A DNA stretch of 64,000 bases from Pseudopyrenochaeta lycopersici. Lineage: Eukaryota > Ascomycota > Dothideomycetes > Pleosporales > Pseudopyrenochaetaceae. The stretch is taken from contig NHZP01000065.1 of NCBI GenBank assembly GCA_003313425.1, positions 227,259-291,258 of the forward strand, in the 5' to 3' direction. This document shows positions 451-63,910 of this stretch, in pieces. Below the pieces are notes generated by a model, which was given only the letters and a program-made list of their open reading frames with translations, was not told the DNA's origin and searched no databases. The translations under genes and the position numbers were made by a program. Every line of letters starts with the position of its first letter. The stretch's first letter is position 1.

Positions 451-472
451 GATTCCTTTCACTAGAAAGTTG
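451..472 (+). repeat. Junction J1, right half only
   Basis: GATTCCTTT and the right stem arm CACTAGAAAGTTG are intact. The left stem arm is absent and is replaced by AATAAAGTTAT from filler. The break falls at the loop TAT|GATTCC. Confidence 0.9.
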
Positions 473-755
473 TCAAGTGGTCGAGGAGCCCCGTGCTCCT
501 TGACCCCTGACACTTTACACGTAGGCTTTGGCCGTGACTGGAGGGAACAGCGAAGCGTTAAACCACCTGGGGTTTAGGGCCATTGCCCCCTGTAAGCAAC
601 GCGAAGCACGGACGTAGCGCGAGATCATCTGGTCTCTGGGTTGCCACACCTGTTAAATCTATGATTTGATTGGTCTATGAATGTAGACATAGGGAGTGTG
701 CGTTTCTTCGCTCACTAGGGACTAGGTGCTCTTGGCATGACTTGATGGATGTCAA
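473..755 (+). repeat. Right common region of a unit (representative, C1)
   Basis: This roughly 300 bp block follows every junction. Starting from GTCAAGTGGTC it carries hairpin 1 (stem around TTGCGC or TCGCGC), a CTTTAC-TAAGC segment, a TGGAG..GAA..CG segment, hairpin 2 (here AAACCACCTGGGGTTT), a GTAAGC..GCACGGAC segment, hairpin 3 before ATTGG, the small palindrome TCTATG..CATAGA, and CTAGGGACTAG before CTTGGC and the TATA box. The stems differ in sequence between units but stay paired, so structure appears to be under selection. Whether it acts as DNA or as RNA cannot be told from sequence. Confidence 0.8.
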
Positions 756-762
756 TATATAA
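669..762 (+). promoter_or_regulatory. C1 promoter: ATTGG box to TATATAA
   Basis: Inverted CCAAT box at 669-673 and TATATAA at 756-762. The start codon at 835 is about 75 bp further on. Confidence 0.7.
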
Positions 763-834
763 GTACAACAGGTGCGCTGTTGGCACGGATGTGGTGCAGA
801 TCCCGTAAGGGACTTTTTTTTCTACTGGACTGCG

Positions 835-1602
835 ATGGAATTGCGCCGAGGAGCGGATGCTTTAGGCACGAATATATCCCCGTCTATTAGAGATGGGTTA
901 GAGGAGGGGAGCTCTTCCATGTTGTCCGTAGGGACAGAAGCAGAGTTTAACGTAGTGAGGGATCACGTATCTAGTAAGAGTCTCTTTGGTTGTCTAGAGA
1001 CTGAATTAGTTGGGCCCCTAAGTAACAGCGTAGCAGCTTTAGTGGAACTTGGAGTGTCTCTCACTTTCCACATAGACCCGCATGGCATGCGACATGGGTG
1101 GTTAACCAAAGAGAGTGGGAAACCCCCTCGACGGTGTGTGGAGGAACAACACAGGTCTTGTCTATACGAGTATGGGCGGTTTATTGCCGAGGGTGGGACT
1201 CGGCAGTCTGTCCTAGTTTTCAAGGTGGACATCCTCAGGTACGGGGTAATGCGGAGCCTGGTTGCGTTTGCGCAGCTCTCGTTAGAGGCACTTGACGTGC
1301 TTTTACAGCGCGTTATTCCTCTTATCACAACGCCGGAAGGGCAGTTAGTAGAGGCTTTTGCTGTTGATGAAGTGCTGCACTTGTTGGACAGTGGATGGTA
1401 TAGCACCAGCGTGGATTGCGGGTGCACACCAGGGAAGAGGTGTAAGCCTTGTGTATCTGTAGAGGATAGTCCGCCACGGTTTCACCGGCTAGATCGATTC
1501 TACGGCGTATGGCCGTTTGGAGAGGAAGATTGGTTTACTGGGATCAGCAGCGCCGTTGGAAAACTGGAGCCACATGGTATAGACTGGCTGAGTTGTTCGT
1601 AG
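835..1602 (+). CDS. WTKESG-family protein (C1), two exons
   Basis: Predicted as join(835..973,1037..1602), 234 aa, with a 63-nt phase-1 intron GTAAGA...GCAG. The start is the ATG in the TGCGATGG context used across the family; the frame is open upstream but has no earlier ATG. Exon 1 ends in RDHVSS. Exon 2 opens with TLVE, followed by VSLTFHID, WLTKESG, a Cys pair, LVFKVD, the helix SLEALDVLLQRVIPL, the STSVDCGC / CKPC cysteine motif, and the family ending WFTGISSAVG...WLSC. The intron length is a multiple of three and contains no stop, so the unspliced message also reads through. Function is unknown; the CxC...CxxC cluster could bind metal. Confidence 0.8.
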   Translation: MELRRGADALGTNISPSIRDGLEEGSSSMLSVGTEAEFNVVRDHVSSKSLFGCLETELVGPLSNSVAALVELGVSLTFHIDPHGMRHGWLTKESGKPPRRCVEEQHRSCLYEYGRFIAEGGTRQSVLVFKVDILRYGVMRSLVAFAQLSLEALDVLLQRVIPLITTPEGQLVEAFAVDEVLHLLDSGWYSTSVDCGCTPGKRCKPCVSVEDSPPRFHRLDRFYGVWPFGEEDWFTGISSAVGKLEPHGIDWLSCS

Positions 1603-1774
1603 GGCAGGTGTATTGTTAAGAGAGGAGGTACCCTGTTTGCCTTATGGAATGGCGTTGGTATATTTGAGTAACGGAAGTATGATATTTTATATAGGAAGGG
1701 ATAGATAGAGTGGTATTTTTCAGTTGGTATCTAGTAAGATAGTAAGTACGTGTTTTATTTTATTTGTGTTTAAA

Positions 1775-1780
1775 AATAAA
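1775..1780 (+). terminator. AATAAA polyadenylation signal (C1)
   Basis: Canonical hexamer 173 bp after the C1 stop codon and before the left common arm. Confidence 0.5.
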
Positions 1781-1844
1781 GTCGTTGTATATTGTAACAT
1801 AGACTAACTATTGTACGAGGTTTTGTAGAGAAGCAAGAACACTA

Positions 1845-2018
1845 AAGAGTTGGGGGTGCGGAGCGTTGTTGTTAAGGGTGCGAACCCTAGGATGGAAAAT
1901 CCAAAAAAAATTGGCTAAGTCCGATTTCACAGTGGCTGAAGGCCATGCAGAGTCACGCTGGGTTGCTGTGGCGCGGGGAGCGCAGACATGGGTTGTGATG
2001 GGCACGGGCCCATTCTGT
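1845..2018 (+). repeat. Left common region of a unit (representative, C1)
   Basis: This block precedes every junction. Its parts are a GCGGAGC..TTAAGGGTG segment, GGATGGAA, a run of A residues, TTGGCTAAGTCC, a GTGGCTG..(G/A)GCCATG or CAGTCACG hairpin, a GTGGCGCG(n)CGCGCA hairpin, and GGCACGGGCCC. Three sub-types exist across the array. The commonest has these GC hairpins. A second has AAAAAAAAGTTGTCAATTGCCC (for example 34995-35015). A third has a GCTGAAAAATTTTTCAGC hairpin (for example 31921-31938). Confidence 0.75.
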
Positions 2019-2061
2019 CAACTTTCGAGTGCTATATATGATTCCTTTCACTAGAAAGTTG
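2019..2061 (+). repeat. Junction stem-loop J2 (short loop)
   Basis: Left arm CAACTTTCGAGTG, loop CTATATATGATTCCTTT, right arm CACTAGAAAGTTG. Confidence 0.9.
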
Positions 2062-2269
2062 TCAAGTGGTCACCAGCCTCGTGCTGGTTACCCTTGCCAC
2101 TTTACCGTTAAGCAGGGCCTGCTATTGGAGATAGCACCGGAGGGTTAGGCTTTTTAAAGCCTAGAGGCGCTGCCCCCTGTAAGCGCTAGCCTTTTTGTCA
2201 CGTGGAGGCGGGAACACATGGAGTGGGCGGTTCATCGCTTGTTATGGAATGATCTTCTCTTGGCGTAGT

Positions 2270-2302
2270 CCAATTGCTGGATAGACGCTTTTCAATATAA
2301 AA
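2270..2302 (+). promoter_or_regulatory. C2 promoter: CCAAT box and TATAAAA
   Basis: This unit has a shortened common region without hairpin 3. A direct CCAAT at 2270-2274 replaces the usual ATTGG, and TATAAAA is at 2296-2302. C37 is identical and C41 has the same shortened region. Confidence 0.6.
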
Positions 2303-2445
2303 GTGGTTTGCGCCACTGTGCAATCACGCAAGGAGTGCGTTAAGGTATGTCCTTTTTTTCTTCGGGAGCGAAGGGTATGGAGTTAATATGATGAAGCTTA
2401 GATAAGCGTCATACGACAGTACATGTTGTACATAGCTTAGGTGCG

Positions 2446-3191
2446 ATGGATCGCTCTACGGAGTGTTGTGGCAGCGGGAGCGTGGCATCTATTACTTCAG
2501 GTGTGCCGGTAGGGCCGCTTTCCACAGTGGATACGCTGAAGTTGTTAGAGGTGTATCTCAACGGTTTGTATCGTAGTGCGCCGGCTGGCCAGTCGCTAAT
2601 GGAGTCACAGACTTTGTGGTACGGTCTGTGTCTGTGACCTGCGTAGCTCGTGCAGAGTCTGTACAGTGGTGGCTCAACAAGGAGAGCGGGCAGCTGCCCC
2701 AGCGTTGTCGGGAGACAGAATGTTCGAGTTGTGTATGGGATGAAGCTCGACAGCCTTATCCAACAGCGTATCTTGCTGTTGTTTTTGTCATTGACAGCCA
2801 ACAACCGGAGGTTTGTCTTGCGGAGCTTTCTACGTATAGCGTGTGTAATCTACTTGGGCGAGTATTGCCCCAATGGGATGTTGTGGCTTCGTCAGCGGAC
2901 GCGGCGCAGCTTATGTCGTCGTTCTTGTCAAGAGGTGGATACGGGGTGTCTACAGAGTGTGACTGTAGTCCATTAGCCGCTGTTTGTCAGGCTTGCCGAA
3001 GTAACGTAGGAAGCGGAGCGATGTGGGTGTGGCGGAATGGATTTACAGGTGTATATCCGTGTCCAGAGCGGAGGTGGTTTACTGGGGTTACAGATGCGCT
3101 CGATATCCCGAAGGTGAGAGATATTACTAAGTTCCCGTGGCTTAGTTGTTGTTTTACTACATCTACAGGGTCTGTGTATGGAGTACCATAG
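2446..3191 (+). CDS. Divergent WTKESG-family protein (C2)
   Basis: Predicted as join(2446..2563,2611..3191), 232 aa. The acceptor GTCACAG at 2610 matches the family position and gives FVVRSVSVTC. The donor (G|GTTTGT) is weak, so the exon 1 end is uncertain. Exon 1 lacks the usual VRRH ending. Exon 2 has WWLNKESGQLPQRC (N replaces T), VFVIDS in place of KVD, a shortened middle, STECDCS and CQAC cysteines, and WFTGVTDALD before the ending WLSC. It is one of the more diverged family members. Unit C37 (57237-58805) is an exact copy by eye. Confidence 0.6.
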
Positions 3192-3480
3192 GAGTTTAGG
3201 GTGTTCACTATGTTGTGTAGGTTTACACTATGACAGTGTCGACATGAGTATGGGCGGCATGCAATTTACTATTGTGTTAATTTTGTACGTATGTAGAATG
3301 TCTTCCTATGTAATATCAGAGTGTAGTATTAATGATACTTATTTTAAGTGTTTGTGATGCAGAGCAGTCTGCGTATTTTACAAGTAATCGGAAAGCTCGT
3401 TTTTTTCAGCTGTTGTCTGTATGTTATGGTCGTGGTAACTATGGAATGTTTTTGTTGGATGGACGATGTTTTGAAAAATC
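3192..3480 (+). other. C2 3' filler
   Basis: T-rich, with scattered stops in all frames. No gene, RNA or repeat seen before the left common arm. Confidence 0.5.
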
Positions 3481-3577
3481 AATCGTCGAAAATTGGCTAA
3501 GTCCATTTTGTTGTGGCTGGAGGGCCATGTTGGGTCACCTGGGGGTGTGGCGCAGATTGTGCGCACGGGGCAGAAAT

Positions 3578-3630
3578 CAACTTTTCTAGTGTGGCGCAGC
3601 CTATATATGATTCCTTTCACTAGAAAGTTG
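3578..3630 (+). repeat. Junction stem-loop J3 (long loop)
   Basis: Left arm CAACTTTTCTAGTG, inner hairpin GGCGCAGCC, loop TATATATGATTCCTTT, right arm CACTAGAAAGTTG. Confidence 0.9.
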
Positions 3631-3640
3631 TCAAGTGGTC

Positions 3641-3845
3641 AGGAGCCTTGCGCTCCTTACCCCTGACACTTTACACCTAAGCAGGGCCTGTGACTGGAGG
3701 GAACAGCGAAGCGGTAGGCTTTTTAAAGCCTAGGGGCCATGCACGCTTAAGTAACACGAAGCACGGACTGTGTGAGTCAGATGACGCTGGGTTACCCGTG
3801 GGTGGCACTCCTGCCCCCACTCCGTCCTCAATCAGTTGTCTGATT
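3641..3845 (+). other. Covarying hairpins of the common region (C3 example)
   Basis: Hairpin 1 is AGGAGCCTTGCGCTCCT at 3641-3657. Hairpin 2 is AGGCTTTTTAAAGCCT at 3716-3731. Hairpin 3 is AATCAGTTGTCTGATT at 3830-3845 and overlaps the ATTGG box. Other units have different bases but the same pairing, for example ACCAGCC/GCTGGT and GGCAGCC/GCTGCC for hairpin 1. Confidence 0.75.
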
Positions 3846-3937
3846 GGTCTATAGCTATAGACGCATGGAATGTGCATTTGGTTGCTCACTAGGGACTAGC
3901 ATTTCTTGGCGAAGACAGCATGGACATGAATATATCA
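3843..3937 (+). promoter_or_regulatory. C3 promoter: ATTGG box to TATATCA
   Basis: ATTGG at 3843-3847; weak TATA (TATATCA) at 3931-3937. Confidence 0.6.
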
Positions 3938-4012
3938 CACGAACAGAGAATCTGTGTTCACGGATGTGCTTCACTTCCTCAAGGGTTTGTTTTCTTCTTG
4001 TATTACCGCGCG

Positions 4013-4795
4013 ATGGAGTCGCAAGCCGGGCAGGGCACTGGCAATGCGGAGGCTGTTTCTGCTATAAGCTTCTTGTCTCTTCTAGAAGCGTTGGAGGAAG
4101 GAAGTTTTTTCCTATTGTCTGTAGAGACAGGTGCGGAGCGGCAATGCGTGAGAGGTCACGTGCATAGTCAGTGTCTTTTTTCCCACTCGTCTTCTAAAAC
4201 TGACGGAGTAGCAGCGCTAGTGGAACGCGGGATGTCTCTCACAATCTTCTTGGATTTGTCGGGGAGACAATCTTGGTGGGTAACTAAAGAAAGTGGACGA
4301 CTCTCTCAACAGTGTGTGGAGCAACAGCATATATTTTGTCTAAAAGATTATAAGGAACTTAGTGCCGAAGGTGGGACCCGGCAGTCGCTCCTGGTCCTCA
4401 AGGTGGATGCACTCCACCCGGATGGGGTGGTCGAGAGCCAGGTTGCTTTTGCGCAGCTCTCGGTAGAGGCACTCGATGTGGTCGTGGAACGCATAGTACC
4501 CCTTCTCATCCTACCAGAAGGGCAGAGGGCGGATACTTTTATGACGTCTTCTATATTGTTGTACTCGTTGGACAATGGGTGGTACAGTACGTGTGTCGAT
4601 TGCGCATGTACGGCGCGTAGAAAGTGTGAGCCTTGTGCGTATGTACAATTTTTTAAGGCTAGGTTTGTTCGAGTAGATGAATTTTCCGGGGTACGGCCAT
4701 GTAGAGAGTCGTATTGGTTTACTGGGATCAGTGACGCTGTGGGAGCAGTACTACCATCGGGAAGGAACTGGTTGAGTTGCACTCGTTTTTGGTAA
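4013..4795 (+). CDS. WTKESG-family protein (C3)
   Basis: Predicted as join(4013..4166,4215..4795), 244 aa. The start is the ATG of GCGATGGAGTCGC. The intron is only 48 nt and has a non-canonical donor (GTCAGT); it is in frame, so unspliced RNA also reads through and splicing may be weak here. Domains in order are MESQAGQ, LEALEEGS, TLVERGMSLT, WWVTKESG, the Cys pair, LLVLKVD, the SVEALDVVVERIVPLL helix, VDCACTARRKCEPC, FSGVRPCRESYWFTGISDAVG and WLSC. Its 3' third is nearly identical to parts of C4 and C24, which suggests gene conversion. Function unknown. Confidence 0.8.
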   Translation: MESQAGQGTGNAEAVSAISFLSLLEALEEGSFFLLSVETGAERQCVRGHVHSQCLFSHSSSKTDGVAALVERGMSLTIFLDLSGRQSWWVTKESGRLSQQCVEQQHIFCLKDYKELSAEGGTRQSLLVLKVDALHPDGVVESQVAFAQLSVEALDVVVERIVPLLILPEGQRADTFMTSSILLYSLDNGWYSTCVDCACTARRKCEPCAYVQFFKARFVRVDEFSGVRPCRESYWFTGISDAVGAVLPSGRNWLSCTRFW

Positions 4796-5144
4796 GAATA
4801 TCGTGATGGTAAGAGTACGTAGTCCCTGTGTCCATGTAATGGTAATAATATATCTCAGTAGGATACAAAAAGTATCAAGTCCATATGGTATGTTATAGTA
4901 AAGTATATTATGGTAAGTGTATTTACTTTTTTACATATAGTTGCTAACATGGTAATGGTAGGGTGATGAGAACAAAAAAATGAACAATGGTAGTGCGGAG
5001 CTTCATTAGTAAGGGTGTGGGCGCCCTTGGGATGGAGCACCATCTCCAAAGAAAAAAAAAATGCGTAAGTCCATTTTCCGTGTGGCTGGAGGGCACGCCG
5101 AGTCAGCAGGAGATGTGGCACATGGGGGGGCACGGGCCCCGACT

Positions 5145-5198
5145 CAACTTTCTAGTGTGGCGTTTTGCCTATATATGATTCCTTTCACTAGAAAGTTG
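5145..5198 (+). repeat. Junction stem-loop J4 (long loop)
   Basis: CAACTTTCTAGTG paired with CACTAGAAAGTTG; inner hairpin GGCGTTTTGCC. Confidence 0.9.
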
Positions 5199-5410
5199 TC
5201 AAGTGGTCAGGAGCCTTGCGCTCCTTGACCCCTGACACTTTACCTTAAGGTTTGCCCACGACTGGAGGGAGTAGCGAAGTGTTAGTCTCTTTAGAGGCTA
5301 GAGGCAAAGACCCTTGTAAGCCTACAAAAGCACGGACGGTGCGGGTCATCTGACTGTTGTGGGCACGTGGGAGGCACCCTTGCCCCCACACCATCTAAAT
5401 CTATGATTTG

Positions 5411-5507
5411 ATTGGTCTATGAACATAGACACAGGGAGTGAGCTTTTGGTTACTTACTAGGGACTAGGTGGTCTTGGCAAAGACAGGATGGATATCACGG
5501 TATATAA
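5411..5507 (+). promoter_or_regulatory. C4 promoter: ATTGG box to TATATAA
   Basis: ATTGG at 5411-5415; TATATAA at 5501-5507. Confidence 0.7.
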
Positions 5508-5580
5508 CAACAGAGGATCTGTGTTCATGGACATGTGGCATGGCCTCGAAGGGATTCTTTTCTTTTTGTATCACCCTGCG

Positions 5581-6380
5581 ATGGAGTCGCAAACCGGGCA
5601 GGGCACTGGCTATGCGGAGGCAGACATGACAAGTGTCCTTCCATTACGAATAGATGGGTTGCAGGAAGGAAGCCCTTCCGCATTGTCCGTAGGGACAGAA
5701 GCAGAGTTTAACGTAGTGAGGGATCACGTGTCCTGTAGGTGTCTCTTTCTGTTTACGTAGACACGGAAGAAGTTGGGCCCTTCCCAACTAACCTCATCAC
5801 AGTGCTGGTAGAGCATCATGTGTCTCTCACGCTCACCATAAATGCGTCGGGAAGACAAGCTTGGTGGTTCACCAAAGAGAGCGGACGCCTTCCTATCCAA
5901 TGTGTAAAGGAGGAACACACGTTTTGTCTGAGAGAGTACGGTCAGTTCATTGCCGATGGTGGGACTCGGCAGTCGCTCCTGGTCCTCAAGGTGGAGGCGG
6001 TCCGTCGGGATGGTGAACTGTGGAGCCTTGTTTCATTTGCGCAGCTTTCGGTAGAGACACTGGATGTTCTCTTGCAGCGGATCCTACCCCTTCTAATACT
6101 GCCGCCGGGGCAGATGGTAGAGGCCTTTACGGCGTCTATGTTGTTGTATTCCTTACAGGATGGATGGTATAATACGCGGGTGGACTGCGCATGTACTCTC
6201 AACTGGATATGTGAGCCTTGTGTGTATGCACATGGTGTTTCATCAAGGTTTGTTCGAGTAGATGAATTTTCCGGGGTACGGCCATGTAGAGAGTCGCCTT
6301 GGTTCGCTGGAATCAGTGACGCTGTGGGAGCAGTACTACCGTCTGGCAGGAACTGGTTGAGTTGCACTCGTTCTTGGTAA
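5581..6380 (+). CDS. WTKESG-family protein (C4)
   Basis: Predicted as join(5581..5734,5803..6380), 243 aa. The frame breaks between the two parts, and a 68-nt phase-1 intron (GTAGGT...TCACAG) restores it exactly, so this unit is good evidence for splicing. The start ATG sits inside the inverted repeat TGCGATGGAGTCGCA (5577-5591). Exon 1 is MESQTGQ...VGTEAEFNVVRDHVS, shared almost verbatim with C1. Exon 2 has LLVEHHVSLT, WWFTKESG, the ETLDVLLQRILPLL helix, VDCACTLNWICEPC and WFAGISDAVG...WLSC. Confidence 0.87.
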
Positions 6381-6737
6381 GGTGGTTACCTGTAGGTTCC
6401 TCTTCTTGTCTCTATGTATATGGCGTATACGAAAGTAATAGTGTGTATACTATGAGGATATATTATACATTATGTATCAGGTTCATTTAGTACATTATTG
6501 TAAGTGTATTTATTTTTTTCACATATAGTTGCTAAGATGGTAATGGCAGGGCTCTTCTGGAAACGAAGAAGTTGTGGTGCGCAGCTTGGTCAGTAAGGGT
6601 GGGAGCCCTTCAGATGGAAATTCGTAAAAAATTGGCTAAGTCCACAGGAACTGTGGCTGGAGGGGCACGCCGAGTCAGGTTGGCTGTGGCTCGGGGAGCG
6701 CAGACATGGGTCGTTTTTGGGCACGGGCCCCCTCCGA

Positions 6738-6780
6738 CAACTTTCGAGTGCTATATATGATTCCTTTCACTAGAAAGTTG
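6738..6780 (+). repeat. Junction stem-loop J5 (short loop)
   Basis: Left arm CAACTTTCGAGTG, loop CTATATATGATTCCTTT, right arm invariant. Confidence 0.9.
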
Positions 6781-6994
6781 TCAAGTGGTCACCAGCCTTG
6801 CGCTGGAGACCCTCGACACTTTACCTGTAAGCAGAGCCTGTGAGTGGAGGGAACAACGGAGTGTTAAACTAGAATTAGTTTAGAGGCGCTGCACGCTTAA
6901 GTAACACGCAGCACGGACCGTGTGAGTCAGATGACTGCAGGGTTACCCGTGGGAGGCACCCCTGCCCCCACAACACGGTCAGACTGAAGTTCTG

Positions 6995-7088
6995 ATTGGT
7001 CTATGGACATAGATTCATGGAATGGGCACTCCGCTGCTCCCTAGGGACTAGGTGCTCTTGGCGTTGCGCAAGACAGAGATCTATATAG
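6995..7088 (+). promoter_or_regulatory. C5 promoter: ATTGG box to TATATAG
   Basis: ATTGG at 6995-6999; TATATAG at 7082-7088. Confidence 0.65.
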
Positions 7089-7198
7089 GAGGGGAGCCCG
7101 CTCACAGAGTACTGAGACGCAGGGAGTGCGTGTTTCGGAGACAGTTGTTGAAGGTTGTTTTACTTTGAAAACAGCATTTGTAGTACGCAGAGGGGCGG

Positions 7199-7797
7199 AT
7201 GGCTGGACGGCACAGCACCAGCGTGGAATGCCTACGTTTACCCCGGGCAAGTTCGGGGGCGAGAGCGTGGCGACGGTTTGGCGAAGCACATCGAAGATTA
7301 ACAACAACGGAGTGTTTCTTGCTGCAAACTATACAGGCTGTATATCCAGTTAGTGGTAGCAACTCGTCCACGTCTGTGCTCGACACAACACGACTAGGTG
7401 TGTGGCGGTATGTATCACGTAGTGTCCTGCCAGTGGAGCGTGTGCTTATACAACAGTTTTTTTCAGAGGACGGATTCGTCTCTTGTTGTCGCATTTATCG
7501 ATATGTGGTGCATATCTGGAGGATCATGAGAGAAGATGGTTGCATGCTCGTGTTAACGGCTTTAGGGATCGAGTTGCAGAGTTGGTAGGCAGCAGTAGTC
7601 TGTATGCGCAGTATACGGTTTCTTGGAGAGACCAGTTGGATTCTCTCGTGCAGGACGGAAGTCGGCGTTTACCACTCGGAGAGTTATCCCTAGATGCTGT
7701 ATTGGCAAGGCAAAGAAACGCTGTTAGTCCGCAAGGGCGTAATTCTCGTGTGCACGATCTCGAAGAGGTAGAGAATGATTATAGTACTACACATTAG
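7199..7797 (+). CDS. Unknown protein (C5), two exons
   Basis: Not recognised. Predicted as join(7199..7407,7467..7797), 179 aa. The 59-nt intron has a strong GTATGT donor and a polypyrimidine TTTTTTTTCAG acceptor in matching phase 2. It joins two frames that are each open on only one side. The N-terminal part is Arg/Ser/Thr-rich. The C-terminal part is helical and charged (YLEDHERRWLHARV, FRDRVAEL, WRDQLDSL) and ends in an acidic stretch. It has no WTKESG motif and no paralogue in this window. Coding length is short, so the unit reaches standard size with filler at 7798-8120. Confidence 0.7.
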
Positions 7798-8120
7798 ATC
7801 TTTTGTAGATCTTGTTATTTGCTATGGTGGTCGCGGACTGCGTTACGATCTGGGTGAGGCATGGTATGTGTTTTATGCTATGTGTTAGTATCTATTGTAG
7901 GAACACGTACATTTGTTTAAGGTACGTATGTAACGTTCTATCGAGAGTAAGGTAAGTAATAACATTCCTTCTGCTAGGTATGTAGTTAGTATTAAGTATG
8001 CTTTAACCATGTTACTAGGTTGCTTTATAGGATGTACATATCTATACATAATTATAGTTGTACGTTTAATTTTCCTGGAAATAAGTACTACTGTAGTAAA
8101 GGTAGGGTTATTGCGAAGAA
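7798..8120 (+). other. C5 3' filler with AATAAA
   Basis: AT-rich, no gene seen. AATAAA at 8119-8124 may be the polyadenylation signal. Confidence 0.5.
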
Positions 8121-8308
8121 TAAAGAATTTGTATGGCAGAGCTTGGTTAGTAAGGGCTCCCACCCTTAGGATGGAATATCGAACATCCATTCTTCTCAAA
8201 AAAATGGCGAAGTCCAATTGTGTGTGGCTGGAAGACAGGCTGAGTCAGATGGGGGCTGTGGCGCGTTCTGCGCACAGACGGGTTGTGATGGGCACGGGCC
8301 CATTCTCT

Positions 8309-11851: not shown

Positions 11852-12721
11852 ATGACGATGGTGTCGTCAACCGGAGGGCATATTCGTACGGATTGTGATG
11901 GCCGTGTAGGTAGCGTACAGCTCGAGCTTGCTCTGTCGGGGATCGACTGCCTTGTAGAAGGCAAGTTAGGAGAATTTGTTACATGGAGTGCATCTGATTT
12001 AGATTGTTTGCGGAGCCACATGGACAGTAGGCTTTTCTCTCTGTCTATCTTTCAACAGTTGGGGGCTGCAACTGACGGAGTGGTAGTGTTGGTGAAGCAA
12101 CGCGTGTCTCTTACGTTTCACCTACAGCCGGATGGCGCGCTGGAGGTATGCCTGACCAAGGAGAGCGGGCAGGCTCCTCGCCAGTGTTCTGCGCCCAATG
12201 TGTGTGGGTGTTATTTTGGAAGTTGTACTTCTGCCGATAATGCCCCGATGGCATTTCTTGTTTGGAAAGCAGACGTTGTAGGACAGTACAATCAGATGCG
12301 GAGCATGGTTGCATTTGCACGTCTTTGCTCGGAAACACTGGAGGTGTTCATCGAAAGCGTATTGCCCTGTGTGTATACACATGGGAGAGATCACGTGCAG
12401 GCGGAGGAGGTCGATACGCTCTTTGACGCACTTGATCAAGGGCGATTTTCCAGTAGCGTTGGGTGCGGGTGCAAATTGCGAGAGCATTGTTTGTCCTGTT
12501 TGTCGTTACGTTCTAATCAGCAACGTTTCACGAGATGGGACATGTTTAGTGGGCCATTCCCATGCGGTCCAGATGGCTGGTTTTCTGGGTACAGCGATGC
12601 GGTTGGAATCGTAGAACCGTTGGCGCTTGACTGGCTTACATGCCCGTATACTGCGCTCAATTCTATCTCGCCTCTCGAGGGTGCACTTAGTAAGTACTCT
12701 GTAGACGAGTTGCTCAGTTAA
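11852..12721 (+). CDS. WTKESG-family protein, long sub-type (C8)
   Basis: If spliced like its sisters: join(11852..12026,12087..12721), 269 aa, with donor GTAGGC and a 60-nt intron. The intron has no stop and keeps frame, so the unspliced form would be 289 aa. This sub-type, shared with C14/C18, starts MTM(V/A)SS and has a different exon 1 (VQLELALSGIDCLVEG). It carries AFLVWKADVV instead of LVLKVD, GCGCKLREHCLSC cysteines, and an approximately 30-residue C-terminal extension after WLTC ending VDELLS. A stretch of about 70 bp near 12397-12466 is identical to C23. Confidence 0.8.
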   Translation: MTMVSSTGGHIRTDCDGRVGSVQLELALSGIDCLVEGKLGEFVTWSASDLDCLRSHMDSRLFSLSIFQQLGAATDGVVVLVKQRVSLTFHLQPDGALEVCLTKESGQAPRQCSAPNVCGCYFGSCTSADNAPMAFLVWKADVVGQYNQMRSMVAFARLCSETLEVFIESVLPCVYTHGRDHVQAEEVDTLFDALDQGRFSSSVGCGCKLREHCLSCLSLRSNQQRFTRWDMFSGPFPCGPDGWFSGYSDAVGIVEPLALDWLTCPYTALNSISPLEGALSKYSVDELLS

Positions 12722-19330: not shown

Positions 19331-19402
19331 CAACTTTCTAGTGTGGCGTTCCGCCTATATAGGGTTAGGGTTAGGGTTAGGGTTCCTTTCACTAGAAAGT
19401 TG
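19331..19402 (+). repeat. Junction J13, stem-loop split by telomeric repeat
   Basis: Left arm CAACTTTCTAGTG and right arm CACTAGAAAGTTG are both intact. The loop reads TATATA, then 21 bp of GGGTTA repeats, then TTCC, in place of TATATATGATTCC. Only the three bases TGA are lost. Confidence 0.93.
19362..19382 (+). repeat. Interstitial telomeric repeat inside junction loop
   Basis: Three and a half units of GGGTTA, in the same orientation as the terminal telomere, inserted precisely in the loop of J13. Confidence 0.95.
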
Positions 19403-20930: not shown

Positions 20931-20984
20931 CAACTTTCTAGTGTGGCGTTCTGCCTATATATGATTCCTTTCACTAGAAAGTTG
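20931..20984 (+). repeat. Junction stem-loop J14 (long loop)
   Basis: CAACTTTCTAGTG / CACTAGAAAGTTG; inner hairpin GGCGTTCTGCC. Confidence 0.9.
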
Positions 20985-21178
20985 TCAAGTGGTCGGCAGC
21001 CTCGCGCTGCCTACCCTGGACACTTTACCTGTAAGCAGAGCCTGTGACTGGAGGGAACAACGAAGTGTTAGTCTTGAATAAGACTAGAGGCAATGCACTT
21101 ACTAAGCATAGCAGAGCACGGGCGCGTGCTGATCATCGGATCGCTGCTTGCCCACTTTTTTTTTCAATCAGTTGTCTG

Positions 21179-32409: not shown

Positions 32410-32967
32410 ATGGGTGGGGGCGTAGATCCGTTGTCTATGCTCCCCGCGGAGCTCTGGTTTGCGGCGCTGGAGATATGCGCAGACGGAGTCTCTCTTTCAG
32501 AGTTTGTGCGCCTGGGACAGGTTTGTAAGCTCTTCGCAGCGTGGAGACGCGGGTCTTTAGTTTGCTGGCTGGATGGGCAACCGCCGGTAGTGCATCTTGG
32601 TTGTGGGCTGGTTCGTTCTGTTGAACGATCTATTGCTTATATTATGGACGACGAAGTTGGTCAGTAGGAGTCGTTGGCGGATGCCATATTTGTTGTGTTG
32701 CATGTTGTGCTAATGTAGTTGCAGCGATGCATCGACGTGGCGTGGAGATGTGGTCTACAATACGAAGTGGTACTGAACCGGAGGCGGCGTTCTTTTCTTT
32801 TGCGCAGACACGGTGGCGGGGACAGCCAGTCTCTAGGGCCAATATACCTGTTGGTGTATATTGGTCAAACGGCAGGGTGTAGTGCGTGTAGCGTGCTGTG
32901 TGGTTGTTTGTGGATGCGATGGTTCGCAGCGATACTTGCTTTCCCCCGAAAGTTTGCGACTGTCTAG
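32410..32967 (+). CDS. F-box-like protein (C21)
   Basis: Residues 8-45 read LPAELWFAALEI...LSEFVRLGQVCKLFAAW. The L-P-x-E-L...L...VCK-x-F pattern fits the F-box, the Skp1-binding module of SCF ubiquitin ligases. By family knowledge such a protein would steer a target to ubiquitination; the target is unknown. Exon 1 (32410..32655) is well supported. An in-frame stop follows at 32665. A phase-0 intron GTTGGT...AGTTGCAG to 32725 would add exon 2 (32725..32967), giving 162 aa with an Arg-rich centre (RRRRSFLLRR) and a hydrophobic Cys-rich end. The donor is non-canonical, so the second exon is uncertain. Nanovirus Clink proteins are also F-box proteins encoded on single-gene components. Confidence 0.6.
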
Positions 32968-48191: not shown

Positions 48192-49040
48192 ATGGATCAC
48201 CGCATCAGCGATAGTAGAGCGGCAGGCGTCGCGGGCCAGGATGGCGGGTCTGGTACTGCTGTAGGGATAACCAGCAATGGGAAGAGGGCGAAGCTTTGTC
48301 GGGACGATCCCACTGGAGGTGTTGTCTCTCTATTGCGGAGCAAGGAAGTCGTAGAGGATTTGTTATCACGTGTTCCGGAGCCATCGCTGATGTCTAGCCG
48401 ACCTGGTGGGGGAGGCTCGGTGTCGTATCTTTCAGCAACGGATGCTATCCGCCTTGCTAACAGGGTGTTTGGTTTTGACGGATGGGCAAACGAAATTCTC
48501 GAAGATGAACGGCTTGGAGAGGAACCGGGGCCGGTGTCTAAGACTAGGCAGTCTACTACGACTACGACTACGACGGTCTATTGGCGATCGAAGATAGCAG
48601 TCACACTGGCGGAGCACTTAGGAGGGGCGCGCCATGAGGATTGGGGCTATGGGAAGGCCACAGCTGCTAGTAAACTCGTAGCCATTGAGAACGCAGCGAA
48701 GGAGTCTGTGACGGATGGCATAAAGCGAGCGTTGATTTTTTTTGGCGAGGCTACAGGGAACTGTTTTAAGGATCATGCCTATCTCGCCTGGGCACAGCGT
48801 GTTATGCGGAGCGGCGAGTGTGCTAGGAAGAGATTTTCTATGGATGAAGTTGTGCGTTTGGATGACGCAGGCAGTGATCGATGTCCCGCTGGTGGATCTA
48901 CCAGTGCATTGGCTTCTCGGGTGGCTGTGCCTGTTACGAGGTCTCCTGTTAAGCAGGAAAAAGAGGTGGAACGGCTTGGTGGGGACGCTGATATATTTGA
49001 TTCAGATGATTTTGATTATGATATGGGGGAGTTCAATTAG
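48192..49040 (+). CDS. Rad52-family single-strand annealing protein
   Basis: 282 aa from the first ATG, single exon. The N-terminal two thirds match the Rad52/Rad22 annealing domain: ATDAIRLANRVFGFDGWANEI (about residues 78-98, split by me at 20: motif ANRVFGFDGW), a beta segment VYWRSKIAVTL, then HEDWGYGKA, AIENAAKESVTDGIKRAL and FGEATGNCFKDHAYL, all in the family order. Family knowledge: Rad52 proteins form rings that anneal complementary single strands and promote homologous recombination in the nucleus. The C-terminus lacks the long Rad51-binding region of yeast Rad52 and ends in an acidic tail (DSDDFDYDMGEFN). A Thr repeat (TTTTTTT) interrupts the domain. The unit has standard common regions, so this gene travels as a cassette and could serve unit replication or exchange. 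Confidence 0.9.
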   Translation: MDHRISDSRAAGVAGQDGGSGTAVGITSNGKRAKLCRDDPTGGVVSLLRSKEVVEDLLSRVPEPSLMSSRPGGGGSVSYLSATDAIRLANRVFGFDGWANEILEDERLGEEPGPVSKTRQSTTTTTTTVYWRSKIAVTLAEHLGGARHEDWGYGKATAASKLVAIENAAKESVTDGIKRALIFFGEATGNCFKDHAYLAWAQRVMRSGECARKRFSMDEVVRLDDAGSDRCPAGGSTSALASRVAVPVTRSPVKQEKEVERLGGDADIFDSDDFDYDMGEFN

Positions 49041-56971: not shown

Positions 56972-57216
56972 CTGACAGCTGTTATTATGGGGCAGCAGTA
57001 CTAATTTTGTAAGAGTGGGAACATTGGAACAATGAGAAGTTATTATTGCGCAGCTTCATTGTTAAGGGTGGGAGCCCTTCAGATGGAACGTCGAACCTTC
57101 AAAAAAAAATGCGTAAGTCCATTTTCCGTGTGGCTGACGGTCATGCAGAGTCACGCTGGGTTGCTGTGGCGCGTTTTGCGCACAGACGGGTTGTGATGGG
57201 CACGGGCCCATTCCGT

Positions 57217-57258
57217 CAACTTTCGAGTGTATATATGATTCCTTTCACTAGAAAGTTG
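57217..57258 (+). repeat. Junction stem-loop J37 (short loop)
   Basis: Left arm CAACTTTCGAGTG. Confidence 0.9.
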
Positions 57259-57466
57259 TCAAGTGGTCACCAGCCTCGTGCTGGTTACCCTTGCCACTTT
57301 ACCGTTAAGCAGGGCCTGCTATTGGAGATAGCACCGGAGGGTTAGGCTTTTTAAAGCCTAGAGGCGCTGCCCCCTGTAAGCGCTAGCCTTTTTGTCACGT
57401 GGAGGCGGGAACACATGGAGTGGGCGGTTCATCGCTTGTTATGGAATGATCTTCTCTTGGCGTAGT

Positions 57467-57499
57467 CCAATTGCTGGATAGACGCTTTTCAATATAAAA
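57467..57499 (+). promoter_or_regulatory. C37 promoter (copy of C2)
   Basis: CCAAT at 57467-57471; TATAAAA at 57493-57499. Confidence 0.6.
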
Positions 57500-57642
57500 G
57501 TGGTTTGCGCCACTGTGCAATCACGCAAGGAGTGCGTTAAGGTATGTCCTTTTTTTCTTCGGGAGCGAAGGGTATGGAGTTAATATGATGAAGCTTAGAT
57601 AAGCGTCATACGACAGTACATGTTGTACATAGCTTAGGTGCG

Positions 57643-58388
57643 ATGGATCGCTCTACGGAGTGTTGTGGCAGCGGGAGCGTGGCATCTATTACTTCAGGTG
57701 TGCCGGTAGGGCCGCTTTCCACAGTGGATACGCTGAAGTTGTTAGAGGTGTATCTCAACGGTTTGTATCGTAGTGCGCCGGCTGGCCAGTCGCTAATGGA
57801 GTCACAGACTTTGTGGTACGGTCTGTGTCTGTGACCTGCGTAGCTCGTGCAGAGTCTGTACAGTGGTGGCTCAACAAGGAGAGCGGGCAGCTGCCCCAGC
57901 GTTGTCGGGAGACAGAATGTTCGAGTTGTGTATGGGATGAAGCTCGACAGCCTTATCCAACAGCGTATCTTGCTGTTGTTTTTGTCATTGACAGCCAACA
58001 ACCGGAGGTTTGTCTTGCGGAGCTTTCTACGTATAGCGTGTGTAATCTACTTGGGCGAGTATTGCCCCAATGGGATGTTGTGGCTTCGTCAGCGGACGCG
58101 GCGCAGCTTATGTCGTCGTTCTTGTCAAGAGGTGGATACGGGGTGTCTACAGAGTGTGACTGTAGTCCATTAGCCGCTGTTTGTCAGGCTTGCCGAAGTA
58201 ACGTAGGAAGCGGAGCGATGTGGGTGTGGCGGAATGGATTTACAGGTGTATATCCGTGTCCAGAGCGGAGGTGGTTTACTGGGGTTACAGATGCGCTCGA
58301 TATCCCGAAGGTGAGAGATATTACTAAGTTCCCGTGGCTTAGTTGTTGTTTTACTACATCTACAGGGTCTGTGTATGGAGTACCATAG
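57643..58388 (+). CDS. Divergent WTKESG-family protein, copy of C2 (C37)
   Basis: Predicted as join(57643..57760,57808..58388), 232 aa; by eye identical to C2 at an offset of 55,197 bp. The two copies lie at opposite ends of the window. It sits between identical units C36 and C38 in an X-Y-X order. Confidence 0.6.
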
Positions 58389-58774
58389 GAGTTTAGGGTG
58401 TTCACTATGTTGTGTAGGTTTACACTATGACAGTGTCGACATGAGTATGGGCGGCATGCAATTTACTATTGTGTTAATTTTGTACGTATGTAGAATGTCT
58501 TCCTATGTAATATCAGAGTGTAGTATTAATGATACTTATTTTAAGTGTTTGTGATGCAGAGCAGTCTGCGTATTTTACAAGTAATCGGAAAGCTCGTTTT
58601 TTTCAGCTGTTGTCTGTATGTTATGGTCGTGGTAACTATGGAATGTTTTTGTTGGATGGACGATGTTTTGAAAAATCAATCGTCGAAAATTGGCTAAGTC
58701 CATTTTGTTGTGGCTGGAGGGCCATGTTGGGTCACCTGGGGGTGTGGCGCAGATTGTGCGCACGGGGCAGAAAT

Positions 58775-58827
58775 CAACTTTTCTAGTGTGGCGCAGCCTA
58801 TATATGATTCCTTTCACTAGAAAGTTG
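58775..58827 (+). repeat. Junction stem-loop J38 (long loop)
   Basis: Left side as J3; right side begins the C36 copy. Confidence 0.9.
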
Positions 58828-59019
58828 TCAAGTGGTCACCAGCCTTGCGCTGGTTACCCTGGACACTTTACCTGTAAGCTCTGGCCGTGACTGGAGGGAA
58901 CAGCGAAGCGGTAAACTAGAATTAGTTTAGGGCAAGAGACCCCGGTAAGTAACACGAAGCACGGACTGTGCAGGTCATCTGATCTCAGGTTACCCACATT
59001 TTATTCAATCGATGCTTTG

Positions 59020-59116
59020 ATTGGTCTATGAATGTAGACAACATGGAAGGGGCACTCTGTTGCTCCCTAGGGACTAGTGTGTCTTGGCAAGGACAGCATG
59101 GACATCAAAATATAAG
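59020..59116 (+). promoter_or_regulatory. C38 promoter (copy of C36)
   Basis: ATTGG at 59020-59024; TATAAG at 59111-59116. Confidence 0.65.
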
Positions 59117-59301
59117 AGGGGGAGGCCTTCCCCCGCTCACGGAGTGTTCTCTACTATGTAGTAACAACGGTACATTACGATTGTATCGCTTGTGTTAGTT
59201 TATGGTGTATGCCATTAGGGTTTGGGAACTGGTTTCGTCCCTAAAAACGAAACAATAGATCATTGAATAGCAGGGAGCTGCGTTCCTTTGGTTAAACAGG
59301 T

Positions 59302-60125
59302 ATGTCCTTTTCAAGGCAGCTTGGAGAGCTGGTTGCCCTGTGTGAGCAGATCGGCTGTTCTGTTCTGGAGGCGGACAGGGCGTTACTGTCGTGGCTTCGG
59401 CATTATGTGTGTGGCTCGATAGGCCACGTTGCCGCTGTGGAGACTGCTGACTTGCGGTTTTTATGGGAGCATGTGCATGGTGTGCGCTCTCCATTTCCTT
59501 CTTGTAGGGAGGGACTCTGGCTAATACCCTTGTAGTGCTGGTGGAGCAGCACATTTCAGTCACGTGTGTCTTGCTGGATGGCAAAGTATCCTGGAGGCTT
59601 ACAGAGGAGACCGGACGGGTTCCTTACATCTCCAGTGGTGTTGGAGTTGAACACCCTCGTCACCCTCGTGTTATGGTACGGACTGCGTATGCTGTCGTGA
59701 AGCTTAGTACACGTTTCTGGGCGGAGACTGTGCAATGGAGTGAAGTGCTTGTTAGCGAACTTAGTGGTCATTCGCTTTGGGTGATTGAGCATCGGGTTGT
59801 CCCCATGCTTGTTGGACTTTTTGGAGAGCAGGCGTGCGGTGTAGAGGCACCGCTTGGGAGATATGCAGTGACGCTGTGGGTGCGTCTTGCACAGAATGTT
59901 TTTGCGTTGCTGGAGGCTGGTGCCTTTTCCAGTGGTTGTTTGTGTAGTTGTACGATTTGTGGAGTATGCGATAGTTGCATAACGAATTGCAACCAGGCAG
60001 GGCTGTTTGTAGAGCAGTGGAGGTTTTGTGGATTGTTTCCTCTCGGCGAAGGACACTGGTGGAGCGGCGTTACGGATGCTGTGGGAGATATTCGCAATAG
60101 CATCAACTGGTTGTCGTTAAGTTGA
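59302..60125 (+). CDS. Diverged WTKESG-family protein, copy of C36 (C38)
   Basis: Predicted as join(59302..59479,59536..60125), 255 aa; by eye identical to C36 at an offset of 3,154 bp. Confidence 0.78.
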
Positions 60126-60370
60126 CTGACAGCTGTTATTATGGGGCAGCAGTACTAATTTTGTAAGAGTGGGAACATTGGAACAATGAGAAGTTATTAT
60201 TGCGCAGCTTCATTGTTAAGGGTGGGAGCCCTTCAGATGGAACGTCGAACCTTCAAAAAAAAATGCGTAAGTCCATTTTCCGTGTGGCTGACGGTCATGC
60301 AGAGTCACGCTGGGTTGCTGTGGCGCGTTTTGCGCACAGACGGGTTGTGATGGGCACGGGCCCATTCCGT

Positions 60371-60412
60371 CAACTTTCGAGTGTATATATGATTCCTTTC
60401 ACTAGAAAGTTG
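60371..60412 (+). repeat. Junction stem-loop J39 (short loop)
   Basis: Left side as J37; right side begins a C22 copy. Confidence 0.9.
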
Positions 60413-60624
60413 TCAAGTGGTCGAGAGCCTTGCGCTCGGGACCACGACGGCTTTACCCTAAGCAGGGCCCGCGAGTGGAACGAGTACCGAAGGGTTAGAC
60501 TACTTGTAGGCTAGAGGCGCTGCCCCCTGTAAGCAACACGCAGCACGGACCGTGTGAGTCAGATGACGCTGGGTTGCACGTGGGAGACACCCTTGGCCCC
60601 ACACTCTATCAGAGTTCTTATCTG

Positions 60625-60720
60625 ATTGGTCTATGAACGTAGACGCAGGGACGGGGCACCACATTGCCTGCTAGGGACTAGGTGCTCTTGGCAGAGACAG
60701 CATGGACATCGACATATAAG
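60625..60720 (+). promoter_or_regulatory. C39 promoter (copy of C22)
   Basis: ATTGG at 60625-60629; TATAAG at 60715-60720. Confidence 0.7.
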
Positions 60721-60807
60721 AGGGGAAGGCTCTCTCCCCGCTCACGGAGTGTTCTCTATTATGTGTAGTTTCGTCTCTTTTCTCTTTTGAACGCGTTGTT
60801 CAGGGCG

Positions 60808-61631
60808 ATGGAGTTGCATCCCGGAGAGTTTTATATCGTTAGGAGGCCTGTGGACCGGCCAAGTGTAGCGGAGTATACGTCTTTTGTTATGGACGCCCTC
60901 GAAGAGGGTTGCAAGGGGGACCCGTTTGCAGGGACTGAAGACGAGTTAGGGATTATTGAAGAATACTCTCACAGTGGGTACCCTGTTGTGTTTCTCCGTG
61001 GAGTTGGTTGAAACTCAGAGTAACTGATGTTGATGTAGTGTTGGTAGAACACGATATTTCTCTTACGTGTCACGTGCAGGCGAACGGGGAACGGGTCTGG
61101 TGGTTCACCAAGGAGAGCGGGCAGCCTCCCATGTCTTGTGGTAGGCTTAAAGACTGTAGCTGCTTAGATCGCTATGAGGGTTCTGGCGATTTGGATGGTG
61201 CGTCTCGGGCGCGTCTCGTCTGGAAGGTCGATGTTGTGGGAGAATACGATCAACTGCGGAGCTTCGTTGCGTTTGCGGAGCTGTCTGTCGATATGCTCAA
61301 TGTGTTTGTGCGGCAGGTACTGCCACTCGTTACTATGATTGCAGCTGATGCTGCTAGGGCGGATGAAGTGGAGGCGGTGTTCCGCGCTGTAGAGAATGGG
61401 CATTTCTCTAGTGGTGCCCTTTGTGGATGCACAGTTGGAAAGTGTTGCACTTCGTGTCTGTTGCTAGGTCGGTGGCAGCGTGGGTTTGCACGTCTTGATG
61501 TATTTGGCGGTGCATTTCCGCTCCCATCGCATAGATGGTTTAATGGATTTAGCGATGCTGTTGGGTTGGTGTTTCCATCGCGGGTAGATTGGTTATCGTG
61601 CAGGTATGTCCATGGTGCGTTATGGTGTTAA
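60808..61631 (+). CDS. WTKESG-family protein, copy of C22 (C39)
   Basis: Predicted as join(60808..60973,61039..61631), 252 aa; by eye identical to C22 at an offset of 26,824 bp. Confidence 0.85.
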
Positions 61632-61921
61632 TGTATGATGCGACACCTTCAGCGTATAGCTGTGATGGTGAAGTGCGGGCTGTTTTTGACGTAGACAAGG
61701 CAAGTATTTTGGTAGTCTTATATTTCTTTGGTAATATATGTACTGCGGCGACATTGGTACGTTATGCGGTTCATAAAATTTTCGAATAAATTTGGCTAAG
61801 TCCGACACAGTGTGGCGCAAAAAAAAGTTGTCAATTGCCCTGTGCGCGATTTAGCGTCGTTTTGGGGTACATGGTGCTCACCCAGAAGTGGGTGGGCGGG
61901 AGGTCACACTCCAGCCACAGT

Positions 61922-61974
61922 CAACATTTCTAGTGAGGCGCAGCCTATATATGATTCCTTTCACTAGAAAGTTG
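61922..61974 (+). repeat. Junction stem-loop J40 (long loop)
   Basis: Left arm CAACATTTCTAGTG as in J23. It separates two identical units. Confidence 0.88.
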
Positions 61975-62186
61975 TCAAGTGGTCGAGAGCCTTGCGCTCG
62001 GGACCACGACGGCTTTACCCTAAGCAGGGCCCGCGAGTGGAACGAGTACCGAAGGGTTAGACTACTTGTAGGCTAGAGGCGCTGCCCCCTGTAAGCAACA
62101 CGCAGCACGGACCGTGTGAGTCAGATGACGCTGGGTTGCACGTGGGAGACACCCTTGGCCCCACACTCTATCAGAGTTCTTATCTG

Positions 62187-62282
62187 ATTGGTCTATGAAC
62201 GTAGACGCAGGGACGGGGCACCACATTGCCTGCTAGGGACTAGGTGCTCTTGGCAGAGACAGCATGGACATCGACATATAAG
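62187..62282 (+). promoter_or_regulatory. C40 promoter (copy of C22)
   Basis: ATTGG at 62187-62191; TATAAG at 62277-62282. Confidence 0.7.
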
Positions 62283-62369
62283 AGGGGAAGGCTCTCTCCC
62301 CGCTCACGGAGTGTTCTCTATTATGTGTAGTTTCGTCTCTTTTCTCTTTTGAACGCGTTGTTCAGGGCG

Positions 62370-63193
62370 ATGGAGTTGCATCCCGGAGAGTTTTATATCG
62401 TTAGGAGGCCTGTGGACCGGCCAAGTGTAGCGGAGTATACGTCTTTTGTTATGGACGCCCTCGAAGAGGGTTGCAAGGGGGACCCGTTTGCAGGGACTGA
62501 AGACGAGTTAGGGATTATTGAAGAATACTCTCACAGTGGGTACCCTGTTGTGTTTCTCCGTGGAGTTGGTTGAAACTCAGAGTAACTGATGTTGATGTAG
62601 TGTTGGTAGAACACGATATTTCTCTTACGTGTCACGTGCAGGCGAACGGGGAACGGGTCTGGTGGTTCACCAAGGAGAGCGGGCAGCCTCCCATGTCTTG
62701 TGGTAGGCTTAAAGACTGTAGCTGCTTAGATCGCTATGAGGGTTCTGGCGATTTGGATGGTGCGTCTCGGGCGCGTCTCGTCTGGAAGGTCGATGTTGTG
62801 GGAGAATACGATCAACTGCGGAGCTTCGTTGCGTTTGCGGAGCTGTCTGTCGATATGCTCAATGTGTTTGTGCGGCAGGTACTGCCACTCGTTACTATGA
62901 TTGCAGCTGATGCTGCTAGGGCGGATGAAGTGGAGGCGGTGTTCCGCGCTGTAGAGAATGGGCATTTCTCTAGTGGTGCCCTTTGTGGATGCACAGTTGG
63001 AAAGTGTTGCACTTCGTGTCTGTTGCTAGGTCGGTGGCAGCGTGGGTTTGCACGTCTTGATGTATTTGGCGGTGCATTTCCGCTCCCATCGCATAGATGG
63101 TTTAATGGATTTAGCGATGCTGTTGGGTTGGTGTTTCCATCGCGGGTAGATTGGTTATCGTGCAGGTATGTCCATGGTGCGTTATGGTGTTAA
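62370..63193 (+). CDS. WTKESG-family protein, copy of C22 (C40)
   Basis: Predicted as join(62370..62535,62601..63193), 252 aa; by eye identical to C39 at 1,562 bp spacing, a head-to-tail unit duplication. Confidence 0.85.
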
Positions 63194-63483
63194 TGTATGA
63201 TGCGACACCTTCAGCGTATAGCTGTGATGGTGAAGTGCGGGCTGTTTTTGACGTAGACAAGGCAAGTATTTTGGTAGTCTTATATTTCTTTGGTAATATA
63301 TGTACTGCGGCGACATTGGTACGTTATGCGGTTCATAAAATTTTCGAATAAATTTGGCTAAGTCCGACACAGTGTGGCGCAAAAAAAAGTTGTCAATTGC
63401 CCTGTGCGCGATTTAGCGTCGTTTTGGGGTACATGGTGCTCACCCAGAAGTGGGTGGGCGGGAGGTCACACTCCAGCCACAGT

Positions 63484-63536
63484 CAACATTTCTAGTGAGG
63501 CGCAGCCTATATATGATTCCTTTCACTAGAAAGTTG
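63484..63536 (+). repeat. Junction stem-loop J41 (long loop)
   Basis: Last junction before the telomere; left arm CAACATTTCTAGTG. Confidence 0.88.
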
Positions 63537-63768
63537 TCAAGTGGTCACCAGCCTTGCGCTGGTTACCCTTGCCACTTTACACGTAAGCAGGGCCTGTGAG
63601 TGGAGCGAACAACGAAGTGTTAAACCACCTGGGGTTTAGGGCCATTGCCCCCTGTAAGCGCTAGCCTTTTTGTCACGTGGAGGCGGGAACACATGGAGTG
63701 GGCAGTGTGCCTCTTTCTACGGAGTAGTGTATCTTGGCAAAGATTACTCTGTGTCCTACATGGGTGGA

Positions 63769-63776
63769 TATATAAA
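63769..63776 (+). promoter_or_regulatory. C41 TATA box
   Basis: TATATAAA, in a unit with the same shortened common region as C2 and C37. Confidence 0.65.
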
Positions 63777-63826
63777 GGGTCCTTCCCCCCGCCTCTTCTG
63801 TCTGGACAGACAGCTTGTGGAGCAAT

Positions 63827-63910
63827 ATGGGTTACACTACATCACGTAAGTATGGGTATGGCCGGAAGGGGCGCTATTCAGGCTATTCGGCCAAAGCGAA
63901 GCCTGGTTAG
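63827..63910 (+). pseudogene. Basic-protein gene truncated by the telomere (C41)
   Basis: The ATG is about 50 bp after TATATAAA. The 27 residues that remain are rich in Gly, Tyr, Arg and Lys (TSRKYGYGRKGRYSGYSAKA), and the stop codon is supplied by the first TTAGGG. Such N-termini are typical of nucleic-acid-binding arms, including those of small circular ssDNA virus capsid proteins, but 27 residues do not identify a family. CGTAAGTATG at 63845 could alternatively be a splice donor. The rest of the gene is lost. Confidence 0.55.

Follow-up and report, generated by a model that had tools for sequence, protein, structure and literature searches.

An array of near-uniform units at a contig end

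We analyzed a stretch of 64,000 nucleotides (hereafter the window) from the fungus Pseudopyrenochaeta lycopersici, which is the last 64 kb of contig NHZP01000065.1 (C65; 227259-291258 of 291258) in a genome of 62.7 Mb in 188 contigs. The window carries a tandem array of units of near-uniform length that share a stem-loop at their borders, and the original prediction, made from the letters of the window, took these units for components of a multicomponent replicon captured next to a telomere. It had counted 40 consecutive units on the + strand, 32 of them distinct, and this count was confirmed: 40 complete units, all on the + strand, lie at 455-63518, followed by a 41st, telomere-cut unit at 63519-63904, and they represent 32 types at 90% identity, which are also 32 distinct exact sequences. 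The proposed start of the array at position 451 had to be given up, because positions 1-454 belong to the end of a unit that is itself shortened, and a further 48 kb of the array lies to the left. It starts at C65:178994, and therefore the whole array, of 112 kb, comprises 71 complete units.

455-63904, + strand: array of 40 complete units and one truncated unit, the right part of the array at C65:178994-291162
1-454, + strand: last part of a unit reduced to 1,319 bp (1,582 bp in full copies) by a deletion between two TATG sites; not part of the host flank
63905-64000, no strand assigned: telomere, (TTAGGG)n, healing a broken unit; the contig ends here

The unit statistics refer to a non-random sample of 114 complete units, about one in seven of those in the genome, obtained from the contiguous stretches that were fetched. 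Unit length was 1,556-1,607 bp in 113 of the 114; the remaining unit, the sole shortened one (window 1-454 together with L021 from 9135), has lost part of its 3′ arm and retains TATGATTCC. At 90% identity over the unit middle the sample holds 60 types, 27 of which were seen once and 18 twice, and the Chao1 estimate of the number of types is 78 (69 to 84 at identity cut-offs of 70 to 95%). A frame of at least 150 amino acids (aa), stop to stop, is present on the + strand of 58 of the 71 distinct sequences; the corresponding figures are 17 for the - strand and 2 for single-base shuffles. The unit promoters that had been claimed also exceeded the shuffles, i.e., an ATTGG motif was present in 64 of the 71 distinct units (shuffled mean 9.2) and a TATA box in 43 (shuffled mean 3.9).

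The genome holds 833 exact copies of the unit-unit border TATATATGATTCCTTTCACTAGA and 40 of the telomere-unit border TTAGGGTTCCTTTCACTAGA, with 0 occurrences of the backwards controls, and the places listed lie on at least 25 contigs. At ~1.58 kb each, the units are estimated to total ~1.4 Mb, or ~2% of the genome. They point toward the contig end at all nine contig ends fetched. Telomeric repeats were read at the outer end of C65, C5, C54 and, via a search locus, C89, and at C4, C10 and the left end of C23 the assembled sequence breaks off within a unit. The inner edge of the array on C5 is adjoined by a region (L028:3870-6000) that by eye resembles a retroelement polyprotein of the gag/pol kind, and a short interstitial telomeric repeat is found at L026:9796-9807, in DNA distant from the array. 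The fungal transcription-factor domain PF04082 gave 148 matches in this genome and 0 in 14 control genomes.

Border stem-loop and telomere junctions

Units start with CCTTTC and finish with TGATT, and the shared stem-loop at their borders was supported by folding: the three borders folded gave z = -3.85, -4.54 and -4.72, and each of them was more stable than every shuffle. The stem-loop carries TATATATGATTCC in its loop, where the site TATGATTCC is one base off the becurtovirus/eragrovirus nonanucleotide TAAGATTCC. The exact 13-base left stem arm is present in 43 of the 106 units with canonical ends, and the rest have a mismatch or an extra base. The border thus has, as judged from its sequence, the features of an origin of the circular Rep-encoding single-stranded (CRESS) DNA type, namely a stem-loop with a nonanucleotide that would be nicked after position 7.

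20931-20984, + strand: example of the border stem-loop, origin-like; 13-bp stem formed by 20931-20943 with 20972-20984, z -3.85
20960-20968, + strand: nonanucleotide TATGATT^CC in the loop of this border, predicted from sequence
20991-21015, + strand: second hairpin, just inside each unit, with compensatory changes
19362-19384, + strand: interstitial telomeric repeats, the fifth interior telomere junction; the 3′ end of the preceding unit reads TATATA and the 5′ CC of the next unit is at 19385

In the second hairpin 96% of the cells were paired and the covariation score was 0.308, compared with 0.137 after shuffling (0/500) and at most 0.091 when slid; two of the five measures, namely pairs changed on both sides (3) and further pair types (8), were not above the shuffles.

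The junctions of the units were then scored in a set of 122 borders (window and L017-L036). The majority, 105, read TATATATGATT followed by CC. Telomeric repeats preceded the CC at 14 borders, one of which is the variant TTAGGGGTT on C4, counted in addition to the 13 scored as such; two borders read CCTTATATGATT followed by CC, and one belongs to the shortened unit. In all nine arrays the innermost unit meets the flanking DNA via one to three telomeric repeats. Five further telomere junctions lie inside arrays. In four of these, TATATATGATT and the CC are separated by whole AGGGTT repeats, one to three in number, and the predicted cut of TATGATTCC after position 7 is the bond at which these repeats are inserted.

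The present outer ends of C65, C89, C5 and C54 are healed breaks within units, and three of them, for which full copies allowed a comparison, show a short overlap with the telomeric repeat. The same base of the same unit was healed at two contig ends (window 63904 and L046, the end of C89; GCCTGGTT), which reflects either shared descent or a hot spot.

Genes carried by the units

One unit of the C65 array encodes P0003, an intact 392-aa Rep, of which nine full copies, 100% identical, and additional broken ones are present in the genome. It carries the sequences HYHAVF, YCFKYDD, GPSRLGKTEW and TCN, which correspond to CRESS-virus motifs of the HUH and helicase domains, and these motifs are largely common to 14 relatives, several of which are partial or altered. 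The relatives are 35-57% identical to P0003, several over partial sequences, and they come from fungi (including Pyrenophora tritici-repentis, P. seminiperda and Colletotrichum sojae) and from metagenomes; apart from Pfam domains they carry no family name. For 7 of the 14 the longest contig is 1.2-1.6 kb, which could fit unit-length molecules or, alternatively, assembly fragments. An alignment profile of P0003 and the 14 relatives matched the catalytic domains of six solved Rep structures, those of geminivirus Reps, with E values of 4e-6 to 4e-5. The sequence of P0003 thus has the order that defines a CRESS Rep, with a HUH endonuclease domain ahead of a helicase domain. Another Rep-like gene lies at L049:80-643 (C92:44959-45522), with further matches at C119:20485 and C131:25421. 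Its frame of 187 aa has a HUH domain only, with no helicase in the 801 bases read, and is ~46% identical to the catalytic part of Rep; possibly it encodes a regulator or a satellite Rep.

The following genes and gene remnants in the window are referred to below:

48192-49040, + strand: Rad52-type annealase gene (PF04098, E 7.2e-28), with 13 identical copies in the genome
63519-63904, + strand: truncated candidate-capsid unit; in its eight full copies elsewhere the product has 353 aa
835-1602, + strand: intact member (255 aa) of the KESG/WLSC family, our name for the dominant protein family
11852-12721, + strand: intact member (289 aa) of the KESG/WLSC family

The protein encoded by the eight full copies of the candidate-capsid unit has a basic, aromatic N-terminus. 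The Rad52 annealase named in the original prediction is clearly present, and its product is 45-48% identical to that of a gene on C12, which is presumably the host's own. The F-box-like protein fared less well: the window copy (32410-32664) has no Pfam match, and a sister unit (L018:3289-3684) matches F-box-like with E 7.3e-4, below the curated cut-off. The unit content is also less varied than the minimum of a dozen unrelated gene types first proposed: the KESG/WLSC family alone is matched by 24 of the 40 window units, which make up 18 of the 32 types; the remaining 14 types lie outside it, and 4 of these 14 have no ATG-initiated frame above 100 aa.

In the whole sample, the KESG/WLSC family accounts for 37 of the 60 types, and in 35 of the 37 it has a single open frame of at least 160 aa. 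The median ratio of nonsynonymous to synonymous substitution (dN/dS) was 0.44 over 248 pairs, 247 of which were below 1, a value to be read with the high synonymous divergence in mind. No homologue of the family was found in the protein search, and no clear fold match was obtained. The family diverges fast under purifying selection, with an F-box-like start in some units, as would suit accessory proteins directed at the host, and its function may be of this kind. In many units (e.g., window 2446-3190 and 60812-61631) the KESG/WLSC start codon and the long frame lie at about the same place in different reading frames, owing to an intron, a frameshift or decay. Across the sampled arrays there are 25 leader variants, of which 15 occur with two or more gene types (7 at most), which points to an exchange of leaders and genes as modules.

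Origin of the arrays

The reading that we favor, and hold to be probable, is that the units are the components, each replicating by itself, of a multipartite CRESS DNA virus of a fungus, or of a non-viral descendant of such a virus, and that Rep joined them to telomere ends. The multicomponent replicon of the original prediction is supported by the presence of a CRESS Rep unit, a candidate capsid unit and a nonanucleotide-like loop site, by telomeric repeats at the predicted nick, and by identical units in differing neighborhoods. In the mechanism that we propose, Rep would nick the loop at TATGATT^CC and stay on the 5′ CC end; the site is suggested by the sequence and by the telomere junctions, and the chemistry by analogy with geminivirus Rep. 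Instead of closing a circle, Rep would hand the CC end to a 3′ end that finishes in TT, for instance the overhang of a telomere (...TTAGGGTT) or another unit's ...TATGATT end, a transfer that would yield the junctions observed. A free ...TATGATT end may prime telomerase, so that TATGATT is followed by AGGGTT, and the product may later take another unit; these junctions were also observed, and the order of events is the one that we consider plausible. Units would be drawn about randomly, as their order in the sample suggests, from a putative free pool of at least 60 types, and packaging or replication limits may lie behind the uniform unit length.

Helitrons have 5′-TC ... CTRR-3′ ends and insert at AT, whereas the units start with CCTTTC, end with TGATT and are joined to telomeric repeats or to one another. 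Becurtovirus and Eragrovirus (Geminiviridae) are monopartite plant viruses of ~2.7-3 kb, in contrast to the many unit types found here. Polydnaviruses are dsDNA circles of parasitic wasps that are inherited with the wasp genome and became part of the wasps, and to our knowledge they have no CRESS Rep. Nanoviruses have an F-box protein, Clink. Polydnaviruses resemble the present arrays in that gene-bearing viral segments are kept in host chromosomes (PMC5094692). The Rep of tomato yellow leaf curl virus cuts TATTATT/AC, and TAAGATTCC is the becurtovirus and eragrovirus nonanucleotide (PMC10653810); the likeness to these two genera lies in this site and in the related Rep catalytic domain. Members of the Nanoviridae have 6-8 components, of 920-1,022 nt in nanoviruses, with a conserved origin on each, and infect plants (PMC5094692). 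They share with the units a near-uniform component size, the conserved origin and an F-box protein, and differ in their fewer and smaller components, of ~0.92-1.02 kb against 1,556-1,607 bp in 60 types here, in their plant hosts, and in that the Rep described here matches geminivirus Pfam models; in number and size of components the units do not fit this family. A similar design is that of the mycovirus BcssDV1, with four single-gene segments of ~1.7 kb, Rep and capsid on separate segments, shared common regions, a stem-loop with the nonanucleotide TACTCTT^CA nicked after position 7, and a GC content of 46-49% (PMC10731770). It is like the present system in its fungal host, single-gene segments, common regions, stem-loop, GC content, a nick (here predicted) after position 7 of the nonanucleotide, and a Rep separate from the (here candidate) capsid, and it differs in having four segments against the 60 unit types sampled, in a Rep frame opposite in sense to its others, and in that telomeric arrays are not described in the available portion of its account (PMC10731770). 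Fusarium graminearum gemytripvirus 1 (FgGMTV1) is a multipartite circular ssDNA mycovirus with three segments, one of them satellite-like (PMC9781238); it shares the multipartite fungal design and differs in having three segments, and the part of its description available does not mention chromosomal arrays (PMC9781238). The nearest systems found have, then, three (FgGMTV1) and four (BcssDV1) segments, and, to judge from our searches, the number of unit types is new, as is a telomeric array with its record of junctions.

An ordinary subtelomeric gene family that had expanded through unequal crossing-over and gene conversion would also be tandem, in one orientation and at contig ends, and the adjacent same-type pairs and the one upstream neighbor common to two of eight copies, both given below, would suit it. 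Unequal crossing-over as the sole explanation of the unit borders, which the original prediction had named among the findings that would overturn it, was tested and does not hold in the sample. The ordered runs of neighbors that such exchange predicts are absent: among the 114 units there are no repeated ordered pairs of different types (0.9 expected in random order), and adjacent pairs of the same type number 3, against 1.3 expected by chance, a value that 15% of shuffles reach. Whole units are identical in 60 of 81 same-type pairs, and their surroundings differ. For one unit, 8 of whose 12 near-full copies were cut out, there are 7 different upstream and 8 different downstream neighbors, a common upstream neighbor being found in two of the eight (L006 and L007), and the stretches upstream of the full capsid-unit copies differ in 8 of 8, one of them being flanking DNA beyond the array. 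Since the neighbors of identical units nearly always differ and the order looks random, unequal crossing-over alone does not account for the arrays sampled, and the differing neighbors of identical copies indicate that the units behave as separate mobile pieces. The Rep, the origin-like anatomy and the telomeric repeats at the predicted nick also speak against a subtelomeric family, which we consider barely credible.

Two other explanations were weighed. A Rep-driven mobile element of CRESS ancestry might have no virus stage, its units circulating in the nucleus and landing on telomeres, and the candidate capsid gene would then be something else. This is unlikely, although several observations would suit it: every copy seen lies in chromosome contigs, the arrays start on telomeric repeats, and the capsid is a candidate taken from the basic, aromatic N-terminus and the size of the 353-aa protein, for which no homologue was found in searches and whose single-sequence model was poor (pLDDT 35.6). 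Against the multipartite virus stand, besides the candidate status of the capsid and the fact that the units are seen in chromosome contigs, the Rep Pfam matches, which are below curated cut-offs (Gemini_AL1_M 8.7e-4), a PDB search with the single Rep sequence that gave no match, IMG/VR scans that found no relative, the upstream neighbor common to L006 and L007, and Rep-driven exchange between arrays or chromosome ends at the border, which could also randomize unit order. Against an element lacking a virus stage, the tight unit length whatever the gene suggests a packaging limit, the longest contig is 1.2-1.6 kb in 7 of the 14 Rep relatives, and fungal viruses of the same design exist (PMC10731770). 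Alternatively, the fungus might have domesticated the system, the arrays being kept to buffer its telomeres or to store effector or defense genes, in a polydnavirus-like manner, and the 833 junctions on at least 25 contigs and the open long frames of 35 of 37 types in the main family would agree with this. Such domestication appears rather improbable, given that Rep and the candidate capsid are intact and identical among copies and that the random order of the units and the identity of their copies speak for insertions that were recent and independent.

A further-reaching version of the many-part virus is possible, and we advance it tentatively: a living virus may keep a segment library in host telomeres, its genome being the most divided of any known, with no fewer than 60 segments and perhaps 80 or more; Rep would be a telomere-targeting strand-transferase, telomerase would cap each insertion, and the chromosome ends would form an inherited bank that launches circles. 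If true, the number of segments of a multipartite ssDNA virus would rise from eight, as given in a 2016 review (PMC5094692), to sixty or more, which bears on how multipartite genomes persist. A telomere-targeted route of integration is also suggested for CRESS elements, the product of which, namely the 3′ end of a unit, telomeric repeats, and the 5′ end of the next unit, can be read in the sequence.

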